Positions 5,718 to 59,185 of a stretch of DNA of 64,000 bases are shown in pieces. The stretch's first letter is position 1, and each line of letters begins with the position of its first letter. The notes under the pieces are model-generated. The model ran no database searches, was not told the origin of the DNA, and saw only the letters and a list, made by a program, of their open reading frames with translations. Origin of the DNA: Chromatiales bacterium. GTDB taxonomy: Bacteria; Pseudomonadota; Gammaproteobacteria; Chromatiales; Chromatiaceae. The position numbers were made by a program, and so were the translations under genes. The stretch covers positions 1 through 64,000 of the forward strand of contig JANQRK010000040.1 in NCBI GenBank assembly GCA_028284585.1. Reading direction: 5' to 3'.

Positions 5718-7118
5718 CTAGTCATTGAAGGTTAGGCGCGAAGAGGTCGGCGGGTCAAACACCGACATCACCGTCTTAATCATGTTGGCGTGGCGCTCTT
5801 CGAAATCGGCGCCGTCGTAGCGCGAGAGTTCGTAGCAGCCGAGAGGGTTCTCCAGGTCGTTGAGCAGGCACTTGTTGCAGTAGCTGCATTCCTTGCCAGG
5901 GTCCGGCCCGTCTTGGCGCTCCAGGATATACGGCAGGTCAGGGTTGGCGATCAGCGGTCGGGCGATGCTCACGCCGTCGCAGGCGCCGTCGTCGATTGCC
6001 CGAGCGATGTTGCTCGCGTGTTGGAAGCCGCCGGTACAGAGCACCGGCACCGAGACCTGTTGCTTGACTGCGCGGGAATAGTCGAGGTTGATGCCCTCGA
6101 TCACCGGGCCACGACGGTATGTCCAGTAGCGGCGGAACAGGGGTCCCAGCAAGGGGTCGCCGAAAACGAACTGGTTCAGTCGGGTGCGCACCCCTTCGGA
6201 CAGCATGCCGTCGTACCAGCGCGAGGCGGAGCGCACGGGCAGGTCGCCGGGGGGGTTGCGCGGGTGCGGGAAGGTGCTGCCGCTAGAGATATGGAAGGCA
6301 TCGACCCCGTTGCCGCTGTCCTCGAGGATGCGGCAGATTTCGACATTCTCTTCCAGGCTGTTGCCCTTGGGCTGCCAGGGGTAGAGCCAGTCGTTATGAT
6401 CGACGCCGTTGATCTTGATCTGCAGATGGAAGTCGCGACCGCATTCCTTGCGGATGGCGCGAACGATCTCGAGCGCAAAGCGTGCTCGGTTGGCCACCGA
6501 GCCGCCGTAGTCGTCTGTCCGATCGTTGATGCCGGAACTGAGGAACTGGGTTATCAGATAACCATTGGCCCCGTGCAGCTCGACGCCGTCGAGACCGGCA
6601 GCGCGGGCGCGGCGGGCACCGGCGGCGAACTGGCCGATAACCTCGTCGATCTCCTGTTGGGTCATGGCCCGACACAGCAGGCCGTGGAAGAAGTCTTTCT
6701 TGTTCGTCGAGCTGAGCTTGTTGTGATAGATGTTCTCAATCCCGCCCAGATCCTGCTGGCGACCGGAGTGGCTAAGCTGCATGATGAATCGGCAGTCGTA
6801 GCGGTGCACCCGCTCGGCCACCAGGCGCCAGAACGGGATTTTGTCGTCGTCATCGATGGTGGCGTAGCGGAACAGGATGCGCCCGCGGATGGCCACGGGG
6901 CAGTACGACGAGATGATGGTGCCGACCCCGCCGCGGGCGAATTGCTCCTCCCAATTGATGCGGGCATTGCCGCCGTGGCCGTTGTAGTCGTCGAACATGC
7001 CGGCGATGTTGGAGCGGAACAGCCGGTTCTTGGAGGTGAAGCTGCGAAACTCGAGCGGGCTGAAGATGGTCCTTTTGTGACGAGCATGATCGGCGGAGGC
7101 GTGGCTGTTGACGGACAT
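5718..7118 (-). CDS. NADH:flavin oxidoreductase / Old Yellow Enzyme family
   Basis: FSPLEFRSFTSKNRLFRSNI, HGANGYLITQFLSSGINDRTDDYGGS, CTGGF, C-terminal CSYCNKC cluster; start taken at MSVNSHASAD. Confidence 0.88.
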   Translation of the reverse strand: MSVNSHASADHARHKRTIFSPLEFRSFTSKNRLFRSNIAGMFDDYNGHGGNARINWEEQFARGGVGTIISSYCPVAIRGRILFRYATIDDDDKIPFWRLVAERVHRYDCRFIMQLSHSGRQQDLGGIENIYHNKLSSTNKKDFFHGLLCRAMTQQEIDEVIGQFAAGARRARAAGLDGVELHGANGYLITQFLSSGINDRTDDYGGSVANRARFALEIVRAIRKECGRDFHLQIKINGVDHNDWLYPWQPKGNSLEENVEICRILEDSGNGVDAFHISSGSTFPHPRNPPGDLPVRSASRWYDGMLSEGVRTRLNQFVFGDPLLGPLFRRYWTYRRGPVIEGINLDYSRAVKQQVSVPVLCTGGFQHASNIARAIDDGACDGVSIARPLIANPDLPYILERQDGPDPGKECSYCNKCLLNDLENPLGCYELSRYDGADFEERHANMIKTVMSVFDPPTSSRLTFND

Positions 7119-7509
7119 GGCTCGAACCCTCGGTTGGTGGATTGCGCATTGACGGGACGGCAAATGGCCCTTGGCGTTAAGTTTACTCGTCGAATCTTGC
7201 GACGGTGAGGTGGCCGCATCGCCGCCTGGGTGTTGGTAGCAACGAGGGCCTCATCGAAATCGCCGAGGTCGCGGTGTTACTGGCGTAAACGAATACCTTA
7301 GGGAGAACTTGCCACGTTTGCATCGAACGGCTCAGCGCTGATCCTTACGCTTACGATCTGTGTCGGACTCGGCAGAGTATAGCGGACGGCTGGGGTGGCA
7401 GCTCCCGGAGTTGACGAATAAACCGATGTCCCCTCATGCCGGGAGCGGATAGGGCGACGCCGAGCGCTAGGGCCGACGCTGCCGCGCTTTCAGCGACGGC
7501 TGGCTATGC

Positions 7510-7725
7510 GCGGGTCCGGGCGGCGAAATCGAGCCGCTTTGCTTGCGCTTGAACTCCTGATGTTGCCAGTGCCGGTTGGGCGGACGGCTCTCCGCTGTCG
7601 CCGAGCAGGTGCGGCGCCAGGGCGACGATGCGCATCAGTTATGCGCCAGCGCATGCAACAACAGCACACAACGGACTTTGGTCTTGCCATGCACCCGCAA
7701 GCGCGTGAGGACACGCTCTCGCGAC
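7510..7725 (-). pseudogene. Transposase C-terminal remnant (frameshifted)
   Basis: Minus-strand RVLTRLRVHGKTKVRCVLLLHALAHN then frame change to LMRIVALAPHLL; resembles the C-terminus of DDE transposases. Confidence 0.5.
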
Positions 7726-7841
7726 GCATTGGCGGTGGCGGCGCGCGCTCTTAAGCGCTTCGCGTCGCTCGTATTCGTCCATGCCGTATCCAAAGTGCAA
7801 GATCCACCCTGTTGTACGACAGAACCTGAAAACGGCGAGCG

Positions 7842-8461
7842 TTACTCCTCTTCGTTCACATCAGCGGAGCTGCTGCTATCGGTGGCGGTCCGATCGAGTG
7901 CTACCCCCCTGGTTGCCTGTTGTTCCGAGTCCAATAGACAACTCAGACATTCGCCTACCCGAGCCTGCAATCCTTCGTTCGTGAGCATGATGCCGTTTGC
8001 ATAGTCGCCCGGCGCCAGCGCGGCGGATAGGGCCCGACGACAGTCCTCCCAGGCCGGCGTGATTGCATCAGCACTCAGCGCCGAGCGCTTGATGATGAAA
8101 TCATTGCTGGCGCCATCGAGACGTAACCGAGCGACTCGGCATTGTTCTGCGGTCGGGACCGTTGGCGGATCAGTGGCCACCATGCGGTGTGCGGAGGGTG
8201 GTCGCGTTCATCCACATAGTGTATCGAAGTCCGAGCGTCGGTTTCTGGACGGATAGATTGCGGCTGGGGTCGCATCGACGCGCCGGTGCGAGCCAACAAC
8301 GTTTCGACCTCCGCCTCGCTCCCAGCAACAGAGTGCCGCAATAACAAATACGGCCGTGTGGGGGCGTCAGGCAGGGAGAAAAGCATCGCTGCACAGAACG
8401 CGATTGTGAGCAACCACAACGACGCTTGAACACCTCGTCTGATAAGCCACAACAGGCCCAT
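7842..8461 (-). CDS. Hypothetical protein with N-terminal TM, probably frameshifted near 8180
   Basis: ORF 8075-8461 (TM N-terminus) and ORF 7842-8183 overlap in different frames; both look coding-like. Confidence 0.4.
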
Positions 8462-9691
8462 CTAGGCCGTTGCATTAAGCCCAATGTTAGGGGGCTCGCG
8501 GTCCTCTTTGATGTCCCAGCGCCAGTAGTCCGCCCCATCGTTTTGGTACTGCGCTATTCGTGCGTTACGGGTGGCCGCGGCTGCGCCGCCGTCATCACAG
8601 ATCTCTAGCGGCACTGCGGTAGCACCCATATCGGAGAGTAAGACGTTAGGGTATTGACCAGGCTCCGAATCGTAGTTCAATGGTTTGTAGAAAAAGCGTT
8701 TGTTCTCGATCAATCGCTTCGCGAGGATCGCTTCTGCCATTGAGTTGACGGGTATGTAGTGTCGATTCGTAACCAGGGGTGCAAGGGTGTCCACTCGCCA
8801 CGCCCCGCGGTCGTTTCGAAGCATCGTCTGGAGAACGAGTATCTGAAACTCATCATGTATCGAGGGCCAGTCAACAAACGCAAAGTCGGTGGCGCGGTGA
8901 AACCGGGTGGTGACCTCCTGGTCGCACCAGATCATCAGTTGCGGCGGTGTGTGCGCGAGGCGCAAACCCGAGCCATAGTCGGTGCGTTTCATCTCTTTGA
9001 GTTGCGCAAGGACCACGAGGCGTCTCGGTGCACCGCCTTCGGTTGTGCTGAGCCGTTTAAACGGCTCAGCACGCCGCGCCTCGATCTCGAGCTTGTCAGC
9101 CAGGTGGAACGGCTCCGGTATGTACACAGCATTGTGGAACGGGCGTCTGCGCACCAGGATCGTTTCCGCGCCGTCTAGGCAGTATTTGTGGACCTGGGTG
9201 TAGTGGCGACGACCTTCCATCTTCGGCGCCCAGCGATTGAACCCGGCCGTTTCCCAGATTAAATGGAGCAACCCGCGTAACTTCAGTCCGTCCTTTTGTA
9301 ACTTCGCACTCCCGGAGATGGGTGGTGCGGTTGGCGGTGCATCGGTGCCCCCACCCCGAATGGGTAAGGGCACCTCGAGTTTGACGCTGATCCGGCCGTC
9401 GGGGCGTTCCTTTAGGGCGGTCGCCGAGTAGATGCCTCGGCCACACAGCCCCGGATCAGGTTCGTACGAGGGGCAGAACGGCGCGTGCTCAGGTCCAGAG
9501 TTGGGTAGTCGTGCGAGATAGTATCTCTGTCGAAACGCGATATAGAGTTTCGGGCCGTCCTTCTTGCAGAGGCACACGGGATAGCGGCCCTTGCATGCGG
9601 CCATCAATTCCTGTGCCTTGTCTGGGTTGCGTGCAAGCCAATCACGCGAGTAGGTCCCGAGTTGAGGAAAATTGATGGAAAGATTGTCCAT
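8462..9691 (-). CDS. DUF1173 family ICE/plasmid protein
   Basis: KGRYPVCLCKKDGPKLYIAFRQRYYLARLPNSGPEHAPFCPSYEP matches the DUF1173 pattern; start at MDNLSINFPQ. Confidence 0.8.
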   Translation of the reverse strand: MDNLSINFPQLGTYSRDWLARNPDKAQELMAACKGRYPVCLCKKDGPKLYIAFRQRYYLARLPNSGPEHAPFCPSYEPDPGLCGRGIYSATALKERPDGRISVKLEVPLPIRGGGTDAPPTAPPISGSAKLQKDGLKLRGLLHLIWETAGFNRWAPKMEGRRHYTQVHKYCLDGAETILVRRRPFHNAVYIPEPFHLADKLEIEARRAEPFKRLSTTEGGAPRRLVVLAQLKEMKRTDYGSGLRLAHTPPQLMIWCDQEVTTRFHRATDFAFVDWPSIHDEFQILVLQTMLRNDRGAWRVDTLAPLVTNRHYIPVNSMAEAILAKRLIENKRFFYKPLNYDSEPGQYPNVLLSDMGATAVPLEICDDGGAAAATRNARIAQYQNDGADYWRWDIKEDREPPNIGLNATA

Positions 9692-9796
9692 GGCACGTGC
9701 AGGGACCCGAGTTCTCTCCACTGTAGCGGGCACGAGCGCCGAAAAGTATCTGCACAAAGCGCGTGACGAGCCGCTTAGTCCCTTGTTTTCTGCGCC

Positions 9797-10285
9797 CTAA
9801 CGCAGATGGAGCGGTGTCGGGTTCGGTGGCCGCCAACGACTTCGGGCCACCCGGTATTCGGGCGCGAGCGCCAACAGACGCTCATACAGCGCCTCGTCGA
9901 ATCGCACCGGCACGCGACGATCGTCAAAGCGTAAGACGCCTCGAACAGCGTCGAGGCGATTCTGCTATTTGAACATGCCCTGGTAAAGTGTGACCTGGTA
10001 GCGTTCTCGCCGGCGCATGACCCCCCGATGCCGCCGGCTCTTGTACTCGCCGACGATGCCATCCCGCCCGTGCCGGCTGACAAACAACGCATCGGCCGCC
10101 CCAACGAGTTGATTATGTCGCAGGTAGACGGTTTTTCGACCCCCGAGGTCGGTCGCGATCAAACGATATATCCGTGGGTCTATACCGAACAGTTCATAGA
10201 CACTTTGTCGCGCTCGATAGGCGCCAACAAACCACCAAACTGCCAACACAAGCAGGCCGAGTGAGACCAGCGCTACTGGAACCAT
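9797..10285 (-). pseudogene. Membrane-anchored PD-(D/E)XK-like nuclease interrupted by an in-frame TAG (9965-9967)
   Basis: MVPVALVSLGLL..LVGAADALFVSRHGRDGIVGEYKSR..YQVTLYQGMFK*QNRLDAVRGVLRFDDRRVPVRFDEALYERLLALAPEYRVARSRWRPPNPTPLHLR*; second half is in the same frame. Confidence 0.65.
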
Positions 10286-10659
10286 AGCGGTCGTGTCAGG
10301 TAGGCGGCGTAACTCAATACTGCGATACCCAGAACCCACGCGATTGGGGTTCGACTGCGATTGGCCGCACGATGAGCGTGCGCTCTGTCACCCCGCATCG
10401 CCGCACTTTGAGACCACGGTGCACCCTGACGATCGCAGTGACCCGCAGGGTTGGCTGCGTAGTCTGCCAAAGCAGAAACGGCGATCGAGCGTCTAGCGCC
10501 CACGTCGGGAAACGTCTTTCATGGTGGCTTAAGCATAGCGCGCCGGGTACCAAAAAACGGCTTGCAAACGGTCTTTTGGAGCCCGCTAAGTCCCCTAAAC
10601 CAGGCGTTCAACCTCGGCAACGTGTTCTTGGTCGTAGCGGTTGGATGCGTTGATGAAAA

Positions 10660-10830
10660 TCACCTTCTGGGTCCTGCTGCTTTCACCCCTCCCATCGCTT
10701 CGACATCAATGCCTTCGAGCGCCACGCGTTTGTTGGTGGCCTGAGCGAGTTCGTTGATCTCTTCCGGCATCGTGTCGAGACGGATCTGCTTGTCAGATGG
10801 CAATGTCGACAGCATCGACTTACGCTCAAT
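10660..10830 (-). pseudogene. C-terminal fragment of an unidentified ORF abutting the IS4 left end
   Basis: Minus-strand KSMLSTLPSDKQIRLDTMPEEINELAQATNKRVALEGIDVEAMGGVKAAGPRR*; upstream part missing at the IS4-like region. Confidence 0.4.
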
Positions 10831-11093
10831 TTAGCCTAGGGCCAATGGCACTTACTTAATAGCAGTAGGCTGAACGCAGTCGAAGTAACGAATTGAATAT
10901 CAAGGAGAAGGCTGACTTGAATTGGTAGGATGCTTGTCGCCAAACACACATTCCACCAACCCGAGGTCAGCCATGGATAAGCGTAGAGCGCGAGCGCAAT
11001 TGCAGCAACAGCAGACACGTATCAATCGACGTGCACAGGAAAGCCATGCGGTGGATTTTTTCAATGTGTTGACTGGGCCTGGCGCTGCTTGAT

Positions 11094-12188
11094 TTGACTG
11101 AGGCCCATCTCCCCGCGCATCGAGAACGCCTGTACCCCCCGACGGTCACCTTGTCACTGTTCATCAAACAGGCGCTGGAGGAGGATGGCTCCTGCCAAAG
11201 AGCCGTCAATAGCTGGGCCGCGCAACGTGTGGCAGAAGGACTATCTCCACAAAGTGTGCGCACCGGGGCGTACTGCAAAGCACGGCAGCGTTTGCCGCTG
11301 GTGATGGTAACGGCATTGACGCGAGAGACCGGCAATTTGCTCTGTACGGCGGGTTCTATCGGTTGGCGTTGGCAGGGACGAACGGTCAAGCTGGTTGATG
11401 GGCCCGGCCTATCGATGCCGGATACGCCAGAAAATCAGGCACGGTATCCACAACTCAGTAGCTAAGCCTGCGGTGTGGGTTTCCCTTTGGCTCGACTGGT
11501 AGCGGTCATTTGCTTGTCCACCGGGGCGATCATCGATGCGGCGATCGGGCCGTTTGTCGGCAAAGGGCAGAGCGAAAATGCGCTGGTGAGACAGTTGCTT
11601 GGTGCATTCCATGCCGGCGAGGTGGTGTTGGCGGATGCGCTTTACTGTAGCTATTGGCTGATTGCGACGCTGCAGTCGGTCGGTGTGGACATCGTGTTCG
11701 AACAGCACGGTTCACGCAGCACGGATTTTCGTCGTGGCCAACGTCGGGGCGTGCGTGATCACCGAGTCACTTGGCGCAAACCGAAACAATGTCCCGCGTG
11801 GCTGACTCGTCGTGAGTATGAGGCGTTTCCAGACACGCTCACAGTGCGTGAGGTCAAGGGGGACAAGCGGGTGCTGGTGACCACCCTGCTCGATCCCTGC
11901 GAGGTGAGAAAACAGGAGCTGCTCGATTTGTATATCCAACGCTGGCACATCGAATTGGATCTGAGAAACATTAAAACGACATTGGGCATGGATGTGCTCC
12001 GATGCCTCACGCCGGACATGGTTGAGAAAGAACTGTGGGTCAATCTGCTGGCTTACAATCTGATCCGTCTGCTGATGACGCAGGCAGCGATCGAAGCCGG
12101 TTTGCATCGGCGCGAGGTCAGTTTCAAGCACACGGTGCAGCTCTGGCTGCAATGGCAGCCATCACTACGTGGACGCGGCGTTAATTAG
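11094..12188 (+). pseudogene. IS4-family transposase with in-frame TAA (11463-11465)
   Basis: ORFs 11094-11465 and 11475-12188 are in the same frame: PQLSS*ACGVGFPLARLVAVICLSTGAIIDAAIGP; YIQRWHIELDLRNIKTTLGMDVL is IS4-like. Confidence 0.85.
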
Positions 12189-12614
12189 CCGAGAGAACTG
12201 TGTGGTCGCTCTTCGTTGATATTGAGTTCGCCAGCTGTCGTACGTTGGAGGTCTGAAGAAACGCCTAGGCGGGGTCGGATGGGGTCCTGGGAGGCGCTGA
12301 GAGGCCGTGAGAGCAGCGATCGGGCAGGTTACACGTGCGGTGTGATTGCTGTTCGGCGCAAAGACATGCGTGGAAACGGGTGTGGTGGACTCGCGACTTC
12401 GGCTACAGCTTCGCCAGCCGATCTTCGTAGCCAAAGAAGCCTGGTTGCACGCGATCTGCCCTCTAACTGCTCGGTTCCGAGATGCCCTTGAATAAGAGCC
12501 GCCGCGCTTATGGGCTCATCCAATAGCGAATGTGAGAACTCTCACATTTGGGCCAGATAGGCGATGGCATCCTAAATCCTCCTTAATGGCGCCTCAATTT
12601 CTAGAGGTGCCCAT

Positions 12615-13331
12615 TTGTTGCATGTGAAACGAAGGAGACTTGCCATGAGGAATTTATTGCTTACCGCCATATTTTTTTTTGCAACCGGCATCTCACCAAT
12701 AGTCAATGCCGAGACTTACAAAGGGTTCCAAGATCGCCTTGGCCAAAACGATAAAAAAAGTGATGCAATTCTACAGATTTTGTCTTTCGAAGGAGTTGTG
12801 ACTGAAAGCAACGTAGAAGATATCAAAACTGGCAGGACAGTCCATGGTCGCGCTGTTTGGGAAGTCGGTCTCGTAGATATGGATTCCAGTCCAACATCAG
12901 GACTATATATGAACCTGCGAAAAATCCGCACCTCCACTTCCTTGATTTTGCGAGGATCATCGGATGTTTTTGTCAACTCTACAGCTCCTGTAAGTGATGA
13001 TGTTCACTTTGACGCAACAGACACTGCACCAGCGGTTTGGTGGGGTCCTGGTGACGAGCCAGGGGATTGGATCATCATTATTTGTGAAAGCAATTCACCT
13101 GAAAATGGTGGCGATAAGTTCAGCTTCGTTTACGGTGGTGTCAGTGAGACTCATGGAGTTATTTTTATGAGGGCTGAATTTGCGGATCCCAGTGGGCAAG
13201 CAATTCAGGAAGATGCACTACCAGACGAATTCAATGTTGAAAAGTTTAAAACGGCGACATTTGAAATAGCAGATCACTCGGGAAAAATGATGGTCAAGGG
13301 CGAAGTTAAGGGGGTCGATCTTGGCCGCTAA
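12615..13331 (+). CDS. Secreted hypothetical protein
   Basis: 238 aa with signal peptide-like N-terminus (MRNLLLTAIFFFATGISPIVNAE); AT-richer than neighbours. Confidence 0.6.
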   Translation: MLHVKRRRLAMRNLLLTAIFFFATGISPIVNAETYKGFQDRLGQNDKKSDAILQILSFEGVVTESNVEDIKTGRTVHGRAVWEVGLVDMDSSPTSGLYMNLRKIRTSTSLILRGSSDVFVNSTAPVSDDVHFDATDTAPAVWWGPGDEPGDWIIIICESNSPENGGDKFSFVYGGVSETHGVIFMRAEFADPSGQAIQEDALPDEFNVEKFKTATFEIADHSGKMMVKGEVKGVDLGR

Positions 13332-15429: not shown

Positions 15430-17442
15430 ACTAGCGACAGGCTAAGCCTGGTAAAGGAGGACGATATGACGTAATGGTCTGAAACCTTTATTTGGAATCC
15501 AGAGGGTTCGACTCCCTCCCGGCAAAGACTAACCATCGGCCGGAAGATAGCCTTGCGTGTTGCCTGGTAACGGGTAGCGCGAAGCGTAGGCGTCGGATGC
15601 TAAAGCCGTGTGATTGAGCCTCGATATCATGTTCGTGCTGAGGTCTTCGTTGTGTTGGGTACGGGGACAGCATTGCAGGTACCGCTAAAGGTGAGGTGCT
15701 TGTGACTCGGCCGGGGTCTGAGAGCAGGGCAAAGGCATAGGACGGATTCCCCAGGAACCTGCGAGATCCTACGACCGACCCGCGAGGATGGTCTGAGCGG
15801 TGGCGGACCGAAAACAGCCACCTGGCCCGTCAGGGGCGGCACGGCCTGGCGGGAGCGGAACGGTGCAAGCCGCGGGAACCCGGCATCGAAACCATAAGAG
15901 GTCGGGCATTCGGCGTAGGAAGTCTTAGCGTCCTGATAGTACTGCTGACGTTGGGGAACTCGGCTCACGGGGACCCAGCCGAGGAAAGCGGGGCGTCACA
16001 TGAGTAGAACCGTTTGTGGGAAACACCGGGGGTGCCTTGAAACCCGAAAGCGTGTCAACGAAACAGGAACGGATAGCCGAATTGGCGAGAAGTAACCGGC
16101 AGATGGCGTTCACATCGCTGAACGGGTATCTGGATATCGAGTGGCTACGCCATGCCTATGAGCAAACGCGCAAGGACGGCGCGGTGGGCGTGGATGGACA
16201 GACGGCGCAAGCCTACGCTGTCAATTTAGAGGCGAACTTGGCGAACCTGCTGACGCGGCTGAAGTCGGGTCGGTATCGGGCGCCGCCGGTGCGTCGCGTC
16301 TACATTCCGAAAGCGGGATCAACGACGGAGAAACGACCGTTGGGTATTCCCGCGTTCGGCGACAAAGTAGCGCAACGGGCGGTCGTGATGTTGCTGGAGG
16401 CCATCTACGAGCAGGACTTCCGGTCATGCTCATTTGGCTTTCGGCGTGGTCGCTCGGCGCACCAAGCCTTGCAGCACTTGCGAAACCGGATCATGGATGG
16501 CGGTGGGCGATGGATTCTAGACGTGGATCTACGTCGGTACTTTGATTCCATCGATCACGTCAAGCTCCGGGAATTGCTCGCCAACCGAGTCGTCGACGGC
16601 GTGATACGTCGTTTGATTGATAAATGGCTGAAGGCGGGAGTGCTGGAAGAGGGGCAGTGGCATCGCTCGTTGACCGGCACGCCACAGGGGGGCGTCATAT
16701 CGCCCTTGCTGGCCAATGTCTATCTGCACTATGTGCTGGACGAATGGTTCCACCAGGCGGTGGAGCCGCGGATGAAGGGTCGTTGCACCCTGGTGCGGTT
16801 CTGTGACGATTTCGTCATGGTGTTCGAAGACTTCCTCGACAGTCAGCGCGTAAGCCGCGTGCTGGGCAAGCGGTTGGGGCGATTCGGCCTCACGCTACAC
16901 CCGGACAAGACCTGTCTGGTGGATTTTCGATTCGAACGGCCGGGCGGTGTCCGACATCGCTGTGCACAGGCCACTTGCTTTAATTTCCTGGGTTTCACCC
17001 ATGTCTGGGGAAGATCGCGGAGAGGCAAGTCGGTGGTCTACCAACGCACCGCGAAGGATCGCTACGCCAGGACGCTCAAGGCCCTGAGTCGGTACTGCCA
17101 GTACCATCGCCATCGCCCGCTCGAAGAGCAGCACGCCAAGCTGAGTCGGATGCTGCGTGGCCACTACGCGTATTTCGGCATTACCGGCAACGGTAAACGC
17201 CTACGCTGGCTGGCCCATCGGGCCGAGCACATCTGGCGGAAGTGGCTATCGCGCCGTGTGCGCAATGGCCAGATAGATTGGCAGCGGTTTAAGAACCTGC
17301 TGGCGCATTATCCCTTGCCGATGCCACGCATCGTTCATCAATACGCCGCGACGAGCGAAGCTGCCATGTGAAGAACCGGATGCGTCAATCGCGCTCGTCC
17401 GGGTCTGTGAGGGGTGGGGACGGTAACGTCCCCGCCTACTCG
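15430..17442 (+). mobile_element. Group II intron (boundaries approximate), inserted antisense in tnpC
   Basis: RT/maturase ORF on + strand; domain V-like hairpin at 17373-17405 and domain VI-like sequence GGGACGGTAACGTCCCC; tnpC interrupted on either side. Confidence 0.85.
16016..17371 (+). CDS. ltrA: Group II intron reverse transcriptase/maturase
   Basis: 451 aa; DGAVGVDGQTAQAY, RPLGIPAFGDKVAQ, SFGFRRGRSAHQAL, GTPQGGVISPLLANVYLHYVLD, FCDDFV. Confidence 0.93.
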   Translation: MGNTGGALKPESVSTKQERIAELARSNRQMAFTSLNGYLDIEWLRHAYEQTRKDGAVGVDGQTAQAYAVNLEANLANLLTRLKSGRYRAPPVRRVYIPKAGSTTEKRPLGIPAFGDKVAQRAVVMLLEAIYEQDFRSCSFGFRRGRSAHQALQHLRNRIMDGGGRWILDVDLRRYFDSIDHVKLRELLANRVVDGVIRRLIDKWLKAGVLEEGQWHRSLTGTPQGGVISPLLANVYLHYVLDEWFHQAVEPRMKGRCTLVRFCDDFVMVFEDFLDSQRVSRVLGKRLGRFGLTLHPDKTCLVDFRFERPGGVRHRCAQATCFNFLGFTHVWGRSRRGKSVVYQRTAKDRYARTLKALSRYCQYHRHRPLEEQHAKLSRMLRGHYAYFGITGNGKRLRWLAHRAEHIWRKWLSRRVRNGQIDWQRFKNLLAHYPLPMPRIVHQYAATSEAAM

Positions 17443-19211: not shown

Positions 19212-19637
19212 GGCTTCCCATCGTTGGTCATGGGGGCCAGTGTTGGTTACACGCGCGGGTTTGAATAGACGCTGATTTGGAGGCGCTTACGATTAAGTTG
19301 TGCTTTTGGACGCACTCGCGTCTACAAAAAGCCGCTCTCGGATCGTGCAACAGCGGCAGGGCCTCGGTGCCCCGGTCCACCATCCACCATCACTGCCTTT
19401 CGGCGGTTCTAGTATTTCAACTACCACTCACGCGGGTCTGCAGTACCCTCGCGGGGGCTGCGCTGCGCGTTCCCATTTCGGAGAGAAACAATGCTCAACA
19501 ATGGAAACGTTGGCCGCAGTTCGGCCGTGATACTACTTCTACTCAGCATCGGCCTCGTCGGTTGCTCAACCTTGCAGGATGACCCGCATCGTCGCGCCAA
19601 GATCGGCGCCGGCGTAGGTGCCGTTACCGGCACCGTT

Positions 19638-21427
19638 GAGACTGTCGAATTTGTCTTGAAGCCGCAGAAAAGCTGGGCTGTCGTGAAGTAGACTGGTCGC
19701 AACAACGGTTAGCAACCCAGGGAGGAAGGATGCCCCGCTACAAACCTGTCAATCTGCAGCAGGATGCCTTTGTCGCGATCTGCTTCGATAAACAGATCCT
19801 GCCGGGGACCTTTGAATACGCCCTGCATCATTTGATGGAGCGCACAGTCGACCTGTCGGCCTTCGATGCACAGTACGCGAATGATGACCTAGGTGCACGC
19901 GCCTACCACCCCAAGGTCCTGCTGAAGATTGTCCTGTTCGCCTATGCGCGTGGCCTGATCGGCAGCCGGCGGATCGAACGGGCCTGTCGTGAGAACGTGC
20001 AGTTCATGGCGCTCTCAGGCGAGGCCACACCGGATCATTCGACCCTCGCTGCCTTCATCAGCCGTTCGCCCGAGGCGATCCAGTCAGTCTTCCGCGAAGT
20101 CCTGCTGGTGTGCGATGCCGCTGGGCTGATCGGTCGCGAGCACTTCGCCATCGACGGCGTGAAGCTGCCGTCGAATGCCTCAAAGGATCTAAGCGGCCGG
20201 ATCGACGAGCTACAGGCAAAGGTCAAGAAACTGGACCGGGCGATTGAGCGGATGCTCAAAGCGCATCATCTGGAAGACGCGAAGGATGCCCAAGGCGACC
20301 TGGAAAGCCACGCGGCCCAGCAGATCGATAAGATCGAGCGCCAGAGCCGCAAGATCAAGGCCTTCCTCAAGTAAGCCCAGCCCAAGTTGGGCCCAAATGG
20401 CAAGGAGCGCAAGAGCAACGTCACCGACAACGACAGCGCCAAGATGAAGACCGGCAAAGGCGTGATCCAGGGCTACACGGCGATTGCTGTTACCGACGAC
20501 AAGCATCAAGTGATCGTCGAGGCCCAAGCCCATGGGGCACCCCAGGAGCAAGAGCTGCTGCAGCCGGTGCTGACCGACCTGCAGGAAAGCTTTCAGGACC
20601 TGGGGCTGTCAGGGAACATCCTGGCCGAAACCAAACTCACGGCGGATTCGGGCTTTCACAGCGGCGACAACCTCAACTGGCTCGACGAGCAACAGTGCGA
20701 CGCCTATGTGGCCGACAACCTTTTCCGTAAGCGCGATCCGCGCTTTGCGGATGCGGACAAGTACAAGCCACCCAAGCCACAACCCCATCGCTTTCGGCCC
20801 AGTGACTTCGACTACTACCCCCAGCGCCTGACTTGCACCTGTCCGGCAGGCAAGGCGCTGTACCGTAACGGCGCCAATGTGACGATCAAGGGTCGCACGG
20901 GCATCAAGTTCACGGCCCCGAAGTCGGCCTGCAGAGACTGTCATCTGCGAGCAAGCTGCCTGCGCGACGAACACCAAAAGACACCTCGCCAGGTCGTCTT
21001 CTTTCGAGAACCCGAGACTGTCGGCGATAGCACCGTCACGCGCATGAAGACCAAGATCGACAGCTTGGTGGGCCGGATGATCTACAGCAAGCGCCTGGGC
21101 ACGGTGGAGCCACCATTTGGCAATCTGCGCTACCACAAGGGGCTGGATCGCTTCACGCTGCGAGGGAGAGAGAAAGTGGATGGGCAGTGGAAGCTGTTTG
21201 CCTTGGTGCACAACATCGAGAAGCTGGCGCACTGTGGCTTATGAAACACAGGCTGCAGAGCGCAATGAACGGCTCAAAGCAGCCTGTCATGGCGCCAATC
21301 GGAGCGTGTGTGCATTGCGAGCGCGAACGGCGATGATTAGGTGAGTTGCGACATCATCGCTTGAAAGGAACCCAGATAATGCAGGTAAAGACACCGGCTG
21401 ACGTGCAATCAGAAATTCGACAGTCTC
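19638..21427 (+). mobile_element. IS1182-family insertion sequence
   Basis: Terminal inverted repeats GAGACTGTCGAATTT (19638) and AAATTCGACAGTCTC (21413-21427); GTT on both flanks. Confidence 0.88.
19730..21244 (+). pseudogene. IS1182-family transposase with in-frame TAA (20372-20374)
   Basis: ORFs 19730-20374 and 20387-21244 in the same frame: KIKAFLK*AQPKLGPNGKERKSNVTDNDSAKMKTGKG. Confidence 0.88.
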
Positions 21428-22011
21428 GTTATCGGCAACAGGTTCGATAGCGGCGCCGGCGCTCCCGTAGGCGCAATCGCCGGTGGACTGCTCGGTGGTT
21501 TCGTGGGCAACTCCATGGACCAGCAGGAACAGGCGTTTCAAGCGGCACTTGCCGCCGAACGAGAGGCTCACCAGATCGAGATCAAAAGACTCGCTGATGA
21601 CCTGCTGGTCCTTTCAATGACATCGGTCGCATTCGAAACGGGCCGAAGCGACGTTCCTCTACAGAGTATCGGTACACTCGATACGATGGCGCGCGTACTG
21701 AACCAGTACGATGCGTCGACTATCCACGTCGTCGGCCATACGGATAACGTAGGTAATCCACAGGCCAACCTCCAATTGTCTAAGGCCCGGGCAGATGCGA
21801 TCGCCGATCACCTCGCTAAGCGAGGCATTGAGGATTCGTGTTTGCAACGCTTCGGTGTTGGCGAAAACCACCCAGTCGCTAGCAACGACACGCTGGTGGG
21901 GCGGCGGCTAAATTGCCGCGTCGAGCTTTATATCCGCCCCTTGGAGCAGGACAACAAGCGTGTAACCCTTGAACCACCTATCGATCTGTTCTGAACCATC
22001 GTGACGCTTAT

Positions 22012-52981: not shown

Positions 52982-53517
52982 TACCTGCACGACATTTAAT
53001 TCGCTTTCTGACGGAATTTCCCGGTGCAGGACCTACAAGTAGCGGATTTTACAGGTTGTTTTCTTTGGGCTGTTCCGAACTGCGCTGCATAAAACCGCGC
53101 ATGTCGCCATGCGCGGCGGGCCATGGCCGAAGTCACCGTATCTCTCGGTCTATGCGGGATGCCTGTCGGACAGTGGAGTGGCATTCCCCGAAAGTTCACA
53201 AAGCCCTGGGTCAGCAGGATCGTGCCGTGGATCGTTGCCGATGCGCGATCAGGAATAGGGCGACCAATCGCATTTCTCATGGCGCATGACTGCACAAAGG
53301 GGCGCCGCCGGCTTCTGGTGACGGGCAACCAGCGGCTTGGAGACAAAGGCCAGAGGCCTTTCCAGAACCCCTTTCAATAGGATTCCGGAAAGGCCTCTCG
53401 CCCGACACGCTGGTGGCATGAGCCATGAGAATGCAAAAGATGCGGACATCGGCCCAATGGGGGTAGCCGATGTCCGCTTAGTGAAGACTCGAGCGCTTCA
53501 CGCTTTGTGCGTGGCGA

Positions 53518-53994
53518 TCACAACAGCCCACGCTCAGCGAACGAGGTAATCGAATCACCGACCACGAAGTGATCGAGTACCCGAACCTCGACCAGGGCGA
53601 GCGCTTCCCACAGCCGGCGGGTGATCGTCTGGTCCGCCTGGCTGGGCACGGCGACACCGGATGGATGATTGTGACAAAGCACCACGGCCGCGGCGTTGTG
53701 ATGCAGTGCTGCCTTGACCACCTCGCGTACATGTACCTGGGCGCCATCGATGGTGCCGCGGAACATCTCCTCGATAACGATCAGGCGATGCCGGTTGTCG
53801 AGAAACAGCACCGCGAATACCTCGTGCTCGCGTTCAGCGAAACGCACCCTCAGGAGCTTGCGCACCGCATCAGGTGACTCCAGGCAACTGCCGGCACGGT
53901 CGGTGCGGTATTTCAGGCGCTGCTCCAGCACATGGCAAGCATGGGCGATGAGTTGATCGTCGTCGAGTTCGATGACGGTTTTGGCGTTGGACAT
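53518..53994 (-). CDS. RadC/JAB (MPN+) domain protein
   Basis: [29 protein letters not shown] motif; start [13 protein letters not shown]. Confidence 0.9.
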
Positions 53995-54077
53995 GGAAAC
54001 CTCCAGGGAATACCGGGAGGCCGCCCACCGGGACCTGGTCCCGGTGGGGTTGATGATGTGGGTCCGGCCTTTCGGCC

Positions 54078-54123
54078 ACCTGTCTTCCGGATCCGAACAG
54101 GTTTGTCGCTTTGGCCGAGCGAC
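54078..54123 (-). promoter_or_regulatory. Tandem-hairpin leader motif, copy 1 (upstream of radC-like gene)
   Basis: ACCTGT-CTTCCGGATCCGA-ACAGGT-TT-GTCGCT-TTGGCCG-AGCGAC. Confidence 0.65.
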
Positions 54124-54269
54124 GCGGCAGAGAACCTTTGCGCAACACCTTCGGAGAAGGTGCTGTGCAAAGCGTTGCACCGCTGAGCGGTGCCTCGAAA
54201 TAGCGGGTCATGTGACTTCGCGTTCTTGAGGCAAGGCTGCCTACAACGATTGCGCAGGCATGGGATCGA

Positions 54270-54449
54270 TCACCAGCCGGCATACCAGTGCCCGCATGCA
54301 GGCCATGTGGTAGAGGGTGCCAGGTCCGCCAGCAACGGCTCGATGCGGTTGCCAGTTTCGCTGAGCGAAGACAGCCCGTTGAATCGGTGCCCGTCACCGG
54401 GAACGGGGCAGACGGCGATCTGATCAGCGATCTGGGTGAGTGATTTCAT
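54270..54449 (-). CDS. 59-aa hypothetical ORF
   Basis: MKSLTQIADQIAVCPVPGDGHRFNGLSSLSETGNRIEPLLADLAPSTTWPACGHWYAGW. Confidence 0.5.
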   Translation of the reverse strand: MKSLTQIADQIAVCPVPGDGHRFNGLSSLSETGNRIEPLLADLAPSTTWPACGHWYAGW

Positions 54450-54642
54450 GCTATTCCTCCGAATAAGCCCCACCACGGAAGCCCTCCGAAACGACCCCGG
54501 AGACGGTGGAGACGTTGCGGAGGGCTCCCGCAGCGGGATCGAACCTGGGAACACCATGCCCCAGCGGGACAGGTGTCCCCAGGGGGTGTGAAAGAAACCG
54601 GGTCCGCCCGGCTAGGTGAAGAATGGATCAAACCCGCAGGCC

Positions 54643-54691
54643 GCGCTTCTTCCTGATCCGAAAGCGCTTTGTCACTGACCACGAAGGTCAG
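54643..54691 (-). promoter_or_regulatory. Tandem-hairpin leader motif, copy 2
   Basis: GCGCTT-CTTCCTGATCCGA-AAGCGC-TTTGTCA-CTGACC-ACGAA-GGTCAG. Confidence 0.65.
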
Positions 54692-54831
54692 GCAACAAAC
54701 CAGTAAGCCGAGTTTAGCGTAACCGCCAGTAGAGTCGGACTGTGTCACCACTTTTTTCAACACCCTGGCAGGGCGCTCAAAAAAGGCCACCCGAAGGATC
54801 GCAAAGGGGATGGCATCTGTCGTGGTTTGTT

Positions 54832-55140
54832 TCAATGGATGGCCGGGGACGGGATCAGCAGATGACAGACGTCGGCTTGCACGTAGCCAAGGCGGCAGCG
54901 TACGCCGGTGTTGCGAACGACGCCGGCCTCCTCCAGTGCCGTGAGCAGTCCCTCGTTTTCGCCGTAGTCCTTGATCAGGACCTGGTCTTCGGCCAGCGGC
55001 ATCGTCGGCACGTTGATGGTCGCCGTGGCGAAGGGCTCGCCTCTGTCGTCGTGGAGCTGGATCGCCAGCCGGCCGTTGGCATAGCGACTGAATTGCAGCC
55101 GGCAGCGGGTGTTGAGAAAAGTCACAGTGTTGTAGGTCAT
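54832..55140 (-). CDS. DUF4313-like protein
   Basis: MTYNTVTFLNTRCRLQFSRYANGRLAIQLHDDRGEPFATATINVP. Confidence 0.7.
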   Translation of the reverse strand: MTYNTVTFLNTRCRLQFSRYANGRLAIQLHDDRGEPFATATINVPTMPLAEDQVLIKDYGENEGLLTALEEAGVVRNTGVRCRLGYVQADVCHLLIPSPAIH

Positions 55141-55175
55141 CGTATTTCGTTCCTTGCATGTCTTTGGGGTAAACG

Positions 55176-55243
55176 CCGCCTTGCCGGGTCCGAAGGTCCG
55201 GCAAGGCGGTGCGTGTTGTAAGAGAGCCCCGCGTGAGCGGGGC
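55176..55243 (-). promoter_or_regulatory. Two perfect hairpins in the leader of the DUF4313-like gene
   Basis: CCGCCTTGCCGG-gtccgaaggt-CCGGCAAGGCGG and GCCCCGC-gtga-GCGGGGC. Confidence 0.6.
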
Positions 55244-55249
55244 AGGGGA

Positions 55250-56050
55250 TCAGCCGGCCTTGAGGGCGGCAAACTCCTCGGTCAGGCGCCACAGCGCCCG
55301 GTTGAGTCGGACGTCTTCGTGGACGGAGTGGATGGCCCGGGTACGCACCCGGCGACCACCGCTTGAGCGGCCGCGCAGACCACCGCGTACCAGGTTCTCC
55401 TGCACGCGGTTCATGGTCAGCCACAGGCTGTCACCGGTGTCGGAGCCGCGCCGTGCACCGAGCAGTGCCTGCGGTTGGACGGGTGACCGCTGCTGCCAGT
55501 CGTCGCCATAGCGCAGTGCCAGCGCGGTGCGTGCGTAGAGGTCCTGTTCACCAGCGTCGAGGGTCAGGCCGTTGAAACGGTCGACACGCTCGACGAGCTG
55601 CGGGGTCTCGTCGACCAGGCTATAGACGCCCTCGATCACCGAGTTGACGACCTCGCGGCCATGGCGAAAGCGCATGCCGCCAGCCTTGCCGATCGGGGTC
55701 ACCATGCCGTTGCTGCAGACCAGGCGGAACAGCCCCAGGTCGAGTTGGAACGACGAACTGCCGTCATGCGAGTTGAGCAGCACCAGCTCGGTCACCGAGT
55801 CGCCGACCTGGGTCGGCTGCTCCTGGCGAAAACGCAGCATGTGGCGCTGGAAGCCGTGGCGTGCCTCGTCACGAACCCGCGACTGCCGGACCGCGACCGG
55901 AAACCAGCCTTCCTGCTCGATCGCCTCGACCAGGTCGATGGTGGGGACAAACCCGTACCGGTTGGTGACCCGGCCATGCGGCTTGGTCGCAAACACAGAA
56001 GGGGCAACGCGCTGAATCTGCGCGTGGGACAGTGCATTGTTGAGCATCAC
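55250..56050 (-). CDS. DUF932 family protein
   Basis: 266 aa; GRVTNRYGFVPTIDLVEAIEQEGWFPVAVRQSRVRDE..LVCSNGMV. Confidence 0.88.
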   Translation of the reverse strand: MMLNNALSHAQIQRVAPSVFATKPHGRVTNRYGFVPTIDLVEAIEQEGWFPVAVRQSRVRDEARHGFQRHMLRFRQEQPTQVGDSVTELVLLNSHDGSSSFQLDLGLFRLVCSNGMVTPIGKAGGMRFRHGREVVNSVIEGVYSLVDETPQLVERVDRFNGLTLDAGEQDLYARTALALRYGDDWQQRSPVQPQALLGARRGSDTGDSLWLTMNRVQENLVRGGLRGRSSGGRRVRTRAIHSVHEDVRLNRALWRLTEEFAALKAG

Positions 56051-56146
56051 GTTCTCCAGAATGCCGGATCACGCCCGCCCTGCCGGGGTGACGTTCCCCG
56101 GTGAGGTGAAAGACAAAGGTGGATCGTTGGATTCAGCCGCGTGGCC

Positions 56147-56192
56147 GCCTGTCTTCCGAATCCGGACAGGCTTGTCGCTTTAACCGAGCGAC
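56147..56192 (-). promoter_or_regulatory. Tandem-hairpin leader motif, copy 3 (upstream of DUF932 gene)
   Basis: GCCTGT-CTTCCGAATCCGG-ACAGGC-TT-GTCGCT-TTAACCG-AGCGAC. Confidence 0.65.
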
Positions 56193-56205
56193 ACCGGTGT
56201 GAAAC

Positions 56206-56823
56206 TCATCCCGGCCCGATCCGGTTGGACGCGGCCAGCCAGATACGCCCGGCCACCCGCGTCAGGTGATAGACCCCCAGCGGGATCCCTGCGCCGAGGA
56301 TGACCGCCAGCACCATGCCCGTCACGGCGGTATCGCCTTGCGGGGGCCAGAAGGCCCAGACGTTCAGCGCAATCGAAATCGCGATGGTCGAGACGACATA
56401 GCGGTGCGCGTAGCCGGCAACGCGGATGTTTGGGAAGGTCGCCAGCACGATCAGCGCGACCTCGCTGGCGACCATGCCGACGTCGATTGCGATCGCCAGT
56501 GCCCAGGCCGACCAAGCGGCGCTGTGGGTGATCTCGCGGATACCGGACGCCAGATGCTCCAGCGAGACGCCGAGCATGATGGTCACCACGGTGCCGAGCG
56601 CAACGACCAGGTGCCGACCAAGGCGCTGCTCGGCCTCGGTCAGGCGGGGAACCTTGTCTCTGGCCCGGCCGCGCGATCGTGGCGCTGCCTTCTTCTTCGC
56701 CACAGCGGGCTTCGGCTTGGCGGCTGCAATTTTCGGCGAAGTCACCGGTGCCGGTATGTCGGCCGGTTCGCCAAAGGTCTGCAGCGCACGAACGGTTCTG
56801 GTTGCTCCGGTTGTCATCGTCAT
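56206..56823 (-). CDS. Membrane protein, hypothetical
   Basis: MTMTTGATRTVRALQTFGEPAD..; basic linker then several TMs. Confidence 0.7.
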   Translation of the reverse strand: MTMTTGATRTVRALQTFGEPADIPAPVTSPKIAAAKPKPAVAKKKAAPRSRGRARDKVPRLTEAEQRLGRHLVVALGTVVTIMLGVSLEHLASGIREITHSAAWSAWALAIAIDVGMVASEVALIVLATFPNIRVAGYAHRYVVSTIAISIALNVWAFWPPQGDTAVTGMVLAVILGAGIPLGVYHLTRVAGRIWLAASNRIGPG

Positions 56824-57217
56824 ATCCTGGTTGGTAAGGGATGGGCTGGCGCTCAACGCTGCACCCGGAAGAGGGTGCAGGGTTGAACGCTCCGCTGGCG
56901 GAGTAGTTGCGTTGAGGAAGTGCCGGTCCCGCACTAGAGATTGCAGGGCCGGGTGGTCTCAGTAGGTAAGGCACAGCAGCAGGTGGCCGTTGGCCGGTGG
57001 TGGCTCGAGCTGGCCGAGCCGTCCGTCAGCCAGTGCGGCATACCTCCGCTCCAGCCTGTCGAGTATCACCATGGTGGCCTCGACCGACGGTGCGTCGGCA
57101 ATGAGCCTCTTGGTGGAAACGACCCCCTGCAGTTAGCCGAAGACCTCAGCGCACTGAAGTGGGTCCGTGGTCAACTGCCATTGGCCGTTACGAAAAACTG
57201 CTGACGTGAAAGACTGC

Positions 57218-57418
57218 TTAGTAGCGTCCGCCGACCGTATAGGCGGCGGGGTAGATGCGGCTGATCGAGAACTGCCCGGCATACTGACCGGGCAAATACT
57301 CCTCGATGCCCTCCTTGATGTTGAACTCACCTATCTCGGTGGTCAGGCGCCCGACGTTGAAATCGTCGTTGCGCCCGTTGATTGTCTTGACCGTGATGGT
57401 CCCTGTGAGGTTGATCAT
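57218..57418 (-). pseudogene. DUF3275 protein, apparently truncated
   Basis: MINLTGTITVKTINGRNDDFNVGRLTTEIGEFNIKEGIEEYLPGQYAGQFSISRIYPAAYTVGGRY*. Confidence 0.7.
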
Positions 57419-57525
57419 GCGTGAACTTCGAAAGTGCCGGAGACCACGCAGCGCCCTGACGGGATGCGTGGCCCCGGCAGGGTTGAGAACAGACAAAGCG
57501 CCAAGACGCTTCGCGGTGATGCGGG

Positions 57526-57969
57526 TCAGGCCGCTGCGGATTCGCTATCCGCGGCGTCAGTACTGCCGGTACCTGACGATGATGGCGCAGAGTAGACGAG
57601 CCGACCGTCGACCCTCACCCAATCGATGCGCAGCAAGCGCGCCTTGAGTGAGACGCCGGTGGTGCCGGCCTTGGCACCCTTCTCGTAGGTAAAGGGCTCC
57701 GGGTAGAGGTCGCCCAGCTTGAAGGCGACGAGCACCTTGCGCTCGCCATCGACGTGCTTCTTCGCATGTGCGATCACGCGTTGCGCCTCGGCGCCGACGA
57801 CACGGCAGTCGAAACGGGTTCGCTGGACGTTCTCGGCCGAGCCAAAGATCGCGGCGATATCGGTCGCCCAAAATGGCTCAGAGCGGGCTGGCTTCACTTC
57901 GCGGATGCGATTGAGATAACCGATGCCCTGGATGTGAAGGTCGAAGTACTTGGTTTCGCTTTGAGTCAT
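57526..57969 (-). CDS. DUF3577 / STY4534-type ICE replication-associated protein
   Basis: YFDLHIQGIGYLNRIREVKPARSEPFWATDIAAIFGSAENVQRTRFDCRVVG. Confidence 0.88.
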   Translation of the reverse strand: MTQSETKYFDLHIQGIGYLNRIREVKPARSEPFWATDIAAIFGSAENVQRTRFDCRVVGAEAQRVIAHAKKHVDGERKVLVAFKLGDLYPEPFTYEKGAKAGTTGVSLKARLLRIDWVRVDGRLVYSAPSSSGTGSTDAADSESAAA

Positions 57970-58172
57970 GGTGTTCTCCTTGAGTAAACGAAGGGAAACA
58001 CCACGCACAATGCGACCCGTCAGGGATGGTGTTTCCCTGTGGGGGTGAATGACAGCCGCAGTGCGGCATTACTGGGTTTATGCGGTTCCGCCTGATTGGA
58101 ATCAGCGGAAGCACTAGGGAACGGGGACTGATCCCGGTTGGATTTTATGGATAGATCGAAGGCCTGAGACCT

Positions 58173-58221
58173 GCCTCTTCTCGCGATCTGCAGAGGCTTT
58201 TCGGATGCCACTGGAAGTGGC
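58173..58221 (-). promoter_or_regulatory. Tandem-hairpin leader motif, copy 4 (divergent; upstream of DUF3577 gene)
   Basis: GCCTCT-TCTCGCGATCTGC-AGAGGC-TTTTCGGAT-GCCACT-GGA-AGTGGC. Confidence 0.5.
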
Positions 58222-58499
58222 CGCACGAAAATGAAGTCGATGAGTCAATCTTATGCGGGATGTGCTGAGTGTCAAGGCCTTCGGCGGGCATTGTGATAAT
58301 TCTTGGAGACACAGGGACTTGGCAGTGTCTGCGCGCCTGTTCTCGGGATGCTGCTGTCGATCCGTGCTGTGAAGTGCGATGACAATGGACGGACGAGTCG
58401 ACCTTTGCGTACTCGGCGAAAGCCGGCTTGAGGTTAGTGGATGCGCTGAGGATACATGGGGAAATCCGGGAATATGGGCTTTATGCGACCTATACCCGA

Positions 58500-58920
58500 C
58501 TTATTGCCTGAATGCTCAGTGACCGGGGCGATGCCGATTCAGGGCCGCGGTGAGGCGGTTGGTAAAGCGCACCTTGTCGGCGACGAGTGTACGGCGTTGC
58601 TCGACCAGGCTGGCCAGGGCACAGACCTCGGGGCGTTCGGGTATCCAAGGGTTGAACTGCTCGGGATGACGCGAGACGAGGTCAAGGAGGAGTTGAGCAG
58701 CGCATGGATCAAGGGCACCTTACGTGACTCGATGCAAACGGCGACCTGCTGATGGGGAAAGCGCTGCTGCATGTCGTTGGCCCAGTCATCGAGGCCTGGG
58801 GGTTATGGGCCATGACACTGAAATCCACGCTATCGGAACCGTTCTCTCGCAGACACGGATCGTGTTTTTTGTCGGCCCAGTCGATGCCGACGATCGCGGC
58901 GAAGTGATCGAGTGATGTCA
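58500..58920 (-). pseudogene. IS110-family transposase N-terminal remnant, frameshifted
   Basis: MTSLDHFAAIVGIDWADKKHDPCLRENGS..WANDMQQRFPHQQVAVCIESRKVPLIHALL..HPEQFNPWIPERPEVCALASLVEQRRTLVADKVRFTNRLTAALNRH. Confidence 0.8.
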
Positions 58921-59185
58921 TGGCAAGGCCTCCTGCGCTACCGTTTGAGAGGGATAGGCGTGCCGATTTCTGCGAAGGCTTTATAGGGAGCACCTGCGAG
59001 GCGGTTCCTGAGTATTCGTTGTTGAAATCGGCGACACTTGCTGGGTCGACGGTATGTCAGTGAGCATCGTATGTTTGGGCGTTCAATAGTCGTCCCCAGT
59101 AGGTGCCTGTCCCACCATCGAGCATAGGAAAGCAGAACAATGGCTATGGACGGACCATCTATAAATAATTTAGGAGGAGTTAGAG

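Follow-up and report, generated by a model that had tools for sequence, protein, structure and literature searches.

Pseudoknotted leader RNAs before DUF3577 and other genes of integrative and conjugative elements, with a proposed role in gating translation

The window analyzed here, a 64-kb stretch of contig JANQRK010000040.1 from a Chromatiales bacterium, contains an integrative and conjugative element (ICE) of the PFGI-1/ICEclc class, with TraD, TraC, PilL and further ICE proteins. A block of its genes encodes DUF3577, DUF3275, DUF932, a DUF4313-like protein (below the Pfam cut-off) and RadC. A sequence-only reading of this block had singled out four intergenic sites, each a 6-bp stem closing a 13-nt loop about 80-205 nt upstream of a gene, and had proposed cis-acting RNA elements that co-regulate the module. 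All four stems and loops are present where it placed them, 83-203 nt upstream of minus-strand start codons. That they form a family of cis-acting RNA elements is supported by strong covariation, by a fixed place and direction before genes, by the presence of more than one copy in an ICE, and by an excess of G-U over A-C juxtapositions; co-regulation is an inference from the sequence. We propose that each leader carries a sensor part that gates translation of the next gene, a reading to which we give a probability of about 0.7.

The RNA is read as the minus strand, which is the gene strand. In this direction a unit consists of a 5′ hairpin, a few bases, the 6-bp stem P3 with its 13-nt loop, the returning strand P3′, a hairpin P4 directly 3′ of P3, and a six-base strand. 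The earlier description as tandem hairpins was therefore right about the hairpins and wrong about the anatomy: its second hairpin sits 5′ of the 13-nt-loop hairpin, and P4 and the six-base strand had been overlooked. At all four sites this strand is complementary to bases 3-8 of the P3 loop, forming a pseudoknot with flanking hairpins and, further downstream, a hairpin that would sequester the Shine-Dalgarno sequence. The pairs are GGATCA/TGATCC at site 2 and GGATTC/GAATCC at site 3, while at site 1 GGATCC faces GGACCC with five of six pairs formed. The fourth loop, taken before as divergent, belongs to an ordinary member, its AGATCG pairing with the downstream CGATCT. These differences among the pseudoknot strands are compensatory changes within one ICE, and the stems likewise vary in sequence among the copies with pairing kept. 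Each window leader holds a single pseudoknot unit. The hairpins noted in the DUF4313 leader (about 55167-55243) are real and do not match the covariance model, so that leader is not a member.

In most leaders the pseudoknot is followed by P5, a GC-rich hairpin, and then by P6, whose 3′ strand is the Shine-Dalgarno sequence up to the AUG. The features of the window are as follows; E values of the cores are from a model without window sequences, and the 5′ hairpins and P5 are read from the sequence.

58248-58275, minus strand: sigma-70-like promoter, TTGACA-16-TAAGAT, before the first leader (p = 0.005, local shuffle test)
58207-58221, minus strand: 5′ hairpin of site 4 (GCCACTTCCAGTGGC)
58150-58203, minus strand: core of site 4 before DUF3577 (E = 1.3e-7); P3 58192-58197 with 58173-58178, loop 58179-58191, P4, strand CGATCT 58153-58158
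58022-58038, minus strand: P5 hairpin of the DUF3577 leader (AGGGA-loop-TCCCT)
57967-58005, minus strand: predicted P6 hairpin over the Shine-Dalgarno sequence and start codon of DUF3577 (CGTGGTGTTTCCCTT / AAGGAGAACACCATG), from folding and a helix score of 29 against 15.9 ± 3.5 in shuffles
57526-57969, minus strand: DUF3577 / STY4534 family ICE replication protein, 147 aa (Pfam 1.4e-51; NCBIfam NF040584 2.6e-50)
56174-56192, minus strand: 5′ hairpin of site 3 (GTCGCTCGGTTAAAGCGAC)
56126-56177, minus strand: core of site 3 before DUF932, with P3, P4 and strand GAATCC 56129-56134 (E = 3.4e-5)
55250-56053, minus strand: DUF932 protein (Pfam 1.7e-39)
54675-54691, minus strand: 5′ hairpin of site 2 (CTGACCTTCGTGGTCAG)
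54622-54673, minus strand: core of site 2 before a 59-aa open reading frame (ORF), with P3, P4 and strand TGATCC 54625-54630 (E = 2.7e-10)
54105-54123, minus strand: 5′ hairpin of site 1 (GTCGCTCGGCCAAAGCGAC)
54057-54108, minus strand: core of site 1 before RadC, with P3, P4 and strand GGACCC 54060-54065 (E = 1.8e-5)
53518-53994, minus strand: RadC-like JAB domain protein, 158 aa (Pfam 1.4e-43)
19325-19381, plus strand: fifth copy, overlooked before (E = 5.6e-8)

A covariance model built from 29 sequences, all from other genomes and none from the window (model R3), finds the four sites in the 64-kb window with E values of 2.7e-10 to 3.4e-5, together with the fifth copy; the next matches stand at E = 0.067 and 0.19. 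Taken by itself, the loop pattern does not reach significance there (three matches, a number reached by 11 of 100 shuffles). Thus the structure, unlike the loop sequence, exceeds chance in this search.

Covariation, whose absence the sequence-only reading had named as a refutation, is present across related ICEs by our own shuffle statistic rather than R-scape. Compared with 500 shuffles, the covariation score is 0.576 against 0.208 ± 0.027 for 14 sequences, where 13 of 17 pairs show compensatory changes, and 0.487 against 0.213 ± 0.015 for 43 sequences, where the pseudoknot helix is 99.2% paired. Leaving out the window gives 0.542 against 0.215 for 29 sequences. In each of these sets the pseudoknotted structure lies above all 500 shuffles in percentage paired, double-change pairs and covariation score, and the signal is lost when partner columns are slid by 1-3 positions. 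The pseudoknot helix occurs as GGATCG/CGATCC, GGACCG/CGGTCC, GGGCCG/CGGCCC and GGACCA/TGGTCC. On the sense strand there are 59 G-U against 18 A-C juxtapositions (41 against 7 in the main type), and the folded strand is therefore the sense strand.

DUF3577 occurs in 21 of 369 gammaproteobacterial genomes. A search of all 369 that made no use of gene information (model R1) gave 33 matches at E < 1e-6, confined to seven genomes with 2-8 copies each, and all seven carry DUF3577. Among 299 proteobacterial genomes no match better than 9e-4 lies outside the window's own genome. With a broader model (R2) the element is found in 14 genomes of a chosen set of 20, most with DUF3577, and the matches include ICEs with a 14-nt loop, whose DUF3577 is like the ICEclc type. 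Scanning genome contigs for the exact pattern returned mostly chance matches, the exceptions being Thioalkalivibrio and one metagenome-assembled genome. Copies share the orientation of the downstream gene and keep the same leader position across genera. The genes behind them encode DUF3577, DUF3275, DUF932, RadC, an antirestriction protein, DUF4942, an SNF2 helicase, coiled-coil proteins and small ORFs, and DUF3577 is the gene behind a leader in every lineage examined.

The promoter at 58248-58275, just upstream of the DUF3577 leader, is the sole promoter-like site in 53400-59000. The internal copies tested gave no significant promoter match, and no terminator-like site was found on the minus strand between the genes (53.4-59.0 kb). 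Nor is there an intrinsic terminator (GC hairpin plus T run) on that strand at any of the four sites, an identity that the sequence-only reading had allowed for. Because there is one promoter and no such site between the genes, copy 4 probably stands at the 5′ end of the transcript and copies 1-3 between cistrons of the same transcript. One promoter for four copies, with no terminator-like site between the genes, also means that gene-by-gene control fits translation. Other ICEs show a long hairpin of the CTTTCC..GGAAAG type before internal copies (L177 at 13940, 11937 and 7909; L178 at 7132-12809; L179/L180); a T run follows some of these hairpins, and no clear promoter lies between hairpin and copy.

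P6 is where translation would be gated. Its strands compensate between leaders, as in GGTCTGTCCCC/GGAGACAGACC-AUG and GGTGCTCTCC/GGAGAGCATC-GAUG. Helix scores against shuffles average z = 1.9 over 34 leaders, and among 27 DUF3577 leaders, all types included, 23 have the Shine-Dalgarno sequence paired above shuffles (0.70 against 0.57, p = 2e-5). Two further leaders in the window, those of DUF3275 and a 205-aa ORF (57420-57500 and 56825-56900, minus strand), seemingly have only P5/P6-like hairpins before the start codon and no pseudoknot element, and the same appears to hold for a small ORF of pKLC102 (L229, about 6760-6829).

In the fifth copy, loop bases GGATCG (19340-19345) pair with CGGTCC (19373-19378). 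It lies 109 nt upstream of a 66-aa lipoprotein-like ORF with a weak Gly-zipper match, followed by transposase ORFs (19730-21244) and an OmpA-domain ORF (21503-21994), all on the plus strand; a lipoprotein/OmpA gene may have been split here by an insertion sequence (19325-21994). Elsewhere on the plus strand, 15509-17371 holds a group II intron RNA (RF02005, 142.6 bits), and a reverse transcriptase ORF lies downstream of it.

Taken together, the leader would be laid out as one or two 5′ hairpins, P3 with its GGATCG-type loop, P4, the pseudoknot strand, P5, and P6 over the Shine-Dalgarno sequence. The pseudoknot would bind a trans-acting signal, and binding would decide whether P6 opens. In this way the genes of one ICE transcript, for anti-restriction, DNA handling and ICE replication, could be set together at translation. 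Several observations weigh against this proposal. P6 scores do not exceed shuffles in 7 of the 34 leaders, and those of window sites 1-3 are near or below shuffles, so that significance belongs to the set and not to each leader. A search for a general alternative pairing to link pseudoknot and P6 came up empty. Pairing between the P5 loop and the 5′ strand of P6, examined as a general switch, found no support, with only 6 of 34 leaders at p <= 0.05; it is striking in L180:1766, in L185 and, by eye, at window position 58150. The covariation counts take in related copies and are not from R-scape. Terminator-like hairpins precede some internal copies in other ICEs and are unexplained. Finally, the structural match that suggests a partner protein, described below, is a weak one on a medium-confidence model.

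Other roles for the structure have to be set against these data. The leader could be an orphan riboswitch, with the P3-P4 pseudoknot as an aptamer for a metabolite or signaling molecule and P5/P6 as a translational expression platform. Its compact pseudoknot, conserved unpaired loop bases and place next to a Shine-Dalgarno hairpin would suit such a device, and the discoverers of radC RNA left the word 'switch' open for that family (PMC2864571). However, the downstream genes are not metabolic, serving instead ICE replication, anti-restriction, RadC and other DNA functions, and the unit's sequence, pseudoknot bases included, differs greatly from one ICE lineage to the next, an unusual trait in an aptamer. 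We regard a riboswitch as somewhat unlikely. Less likely still is an element for processing, stability or antitermination of the long polycistronic ICE transcript, with secondary effects on translation. It is favored by the presence of several copies in one transcript and, in other ICEs, by the terminator-like or long hairpins that immediately precede internal copies. Yet a copy also sits at the 5′ end right after the promoter, the window genes have no minus-strand terminator-like site between them, and the conserved P6 at the ribosome site would stay unexplained.

The structures might instead be DNA elements, serving as single-strand promoters or origins once the ICE arrives in a recipient in single-stranded form. 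Early genes are the setting typical of leading regions, and the STAXI RNA authors themselves considered single-stranded DNA (PMC2864571). We think this very improbable, as the G-U excess places the fold on the sense strand, the first copy has an ordinary sigma-70-like promoter upstream, with no significant match at the internal copies tested, no -10 or -35 sequences are seen in the stems, and P6 sits on the Shine-Dalgarno sequence. The known counterparts are Frpo/ssi single-strand promoters, structured elements before early genes of conjugative elements (PMC11541004). In Frpo the promoter lies in folded DNA, whereas here the mRNA sense strand folds, downstream of an ordinary promoter-like site. 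A dispersed repeat of the repetitive extragenic palindrome or miniature inverted-repeat transposable element (REP/MITE) kind, with no regulatory role, is scarcely credible. Near-identical copies in one Thioalkalivibrio ICE show that duplication has occurred, but window copies vary in stem sequence and keep pairing, and strong copies are found in ICE-bearing genomes alone, oriented with the gene and in the same leader across genera, rather than at random positions and orientations.

If the leader senses a signal, our leading guess is the ICE's own DUF3577 protein under autogenous control; as a candidate regulator it stays tentative, with the odds against it. An AlphaFold model (pLDDT 71, five sequences) shows secondary-structure elements in the order strand-strand-strand-helix-strand-strand. 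Its best PDB neighbors are single-stranded-DNA-binding proteins, weakly so (E 0.016, TM 0.40), while no solved structure matches DUF3577 by sequence. The fold is predicted to resemble an oligonucleotide/oligosaccharide-binding (OB) fold. The analogy is with phage T4 gp32, an OB-fold single-stranded-DNA-binding protein that binds a pseudoknot in its own mRNA leader and represses its own translation. A leader pseudoknot and translational repression would be common to both. By contrast, gp32 acts on its own message, whereas the element described here precedes many genes; no relation between the sequences is known.

The closest known systems are radC RNA (Rfam RF01754) and STAXI RNA (RF01728), both described by Weinberg et al. 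2010 (PMC2864571), the latter as a series of two or three pseudoknots close to genes for SSB, topoisomerase, antirestriction and integrase. The sequence-only reading knew of no named family that fits. At the level of Rfam models this holds: the window copies have no plausible match (E up to 10), and neither do the ICEclc-like leaders tested. The radC RNA model (gathering score 40 bits) has no window match at E up to 10, its best match in the window's own genome reaching 18 bits elsewhere. For STAXI RNA none lies above cut-off in that genome (G000) or five related ICE genomes; a search for STAXI RNA in the order of G126 found nothing there and nothing in controls either, and is uninformative. 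Covariance models of the leader types do not recognize one another. Two matches below cut-off were discarded: LOOT at L013:171-280 (34 bits), which is on the antisense strand and overlies a terminator-like hairpin instead of the element, and radC RNA at L184:14244 (24.7 bits), where both strands give weak matches and which was taken as chance. As a family, then, the window RNA counts as neither radC RNA nor STAXI RNA. The part of the claim that has to be amended concerns place and apparent topology, as related elements carry these RNAs in the same leader position with what appears to be the same pseudoknot.

Genuine radC RNAs (93-138 bits) occur in the ICE of genome G296, one directly before DUF3577. 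In one plasmid each of Enterobacter ludwigii and Ralstonia, radC RNA precedes DUF3577 by 112-113 nt, and in pKLC102 by about 105 nt. In Salmonella SGI4 and a Pantoea plasmid, STAXI RNA (87-88 bits) precedes the DUF3577 start by 136-145 nt. Like the window type, which leads DUF3577, DUF932, the 59-aa ORF and RadC, radC RNA occurs in several copies per element with a Shine-Dalgarno hairpin downstream, and, read at the sequence level, has a stem-loop, an adjacent hairpin and a pseudoknot strand (e.g., CGGTC/GACCG, GACC/GGTC). It differs in its 11-nt loop, xCGATCTTCAA, against the 13-nt YCGGATCGGGAAG of the window type, and in a second tandem pseudoknot unit, which our scan picks up in leaders of the radC type and in none of those in the window. 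That unit (L190, L227, L228, L229, L230) joins GTTCGC..GCGAAC with GGCATC/GATGCC, AGCATTC/GAATGCT, GCTTCC/GGAAGC or GCACTC/GAGTGC. It was unexpected and is read from covarying strands, its outer stem being missing from the printed RF01754 structure. STAXI RNA shares the leader position before DUF3577 and has two or three tandem units against one in the window; here the equivalence of units is read by eye only. Leaders of ICEHin1056, Comamonas, Klebsiella and Vibrio show single units, by eye or in a sequence-free unit scan. The scan is strict: 14 of 29 leaders reach p <= 0.05, and several that the eye picks out are missed.

We found no follow-up study on the function of radC RNA or STAXI RNA, and the ICEclc papers searched do not mention leader hairpins. 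The pseudoknot unit of the window type also appears to be the building block of both RNAs, and the window type probably works like them; from place and topology we infer common descent. In our reading the GGATCG type is a new lineage within a single class of ICE leader RNAs that act by controlling translation. A fuller version, doubtful as a whole, would make all three branches of one class in ICEclc/SPI-7/pKLC102-type ICEs and have an OB-fold DUF3577 read the pseudoknots, setting translation of establishment genes by the amount of single-stranded ICE DNA. These ICEs spread pollutant-degradation, pathogenicity and resistance genes, and the leaders suggest that many of their genes for DNA handling and anti-restriction are set at translation, a level of control absent from the ICEclc papers searched. 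Two orphan RNA families from 2010, joined here by a third lineage, share the same leader across one ICE superfamily, and radC RNA and STAXI RNA thereby gain a common biological setting and a candidate partner protein.

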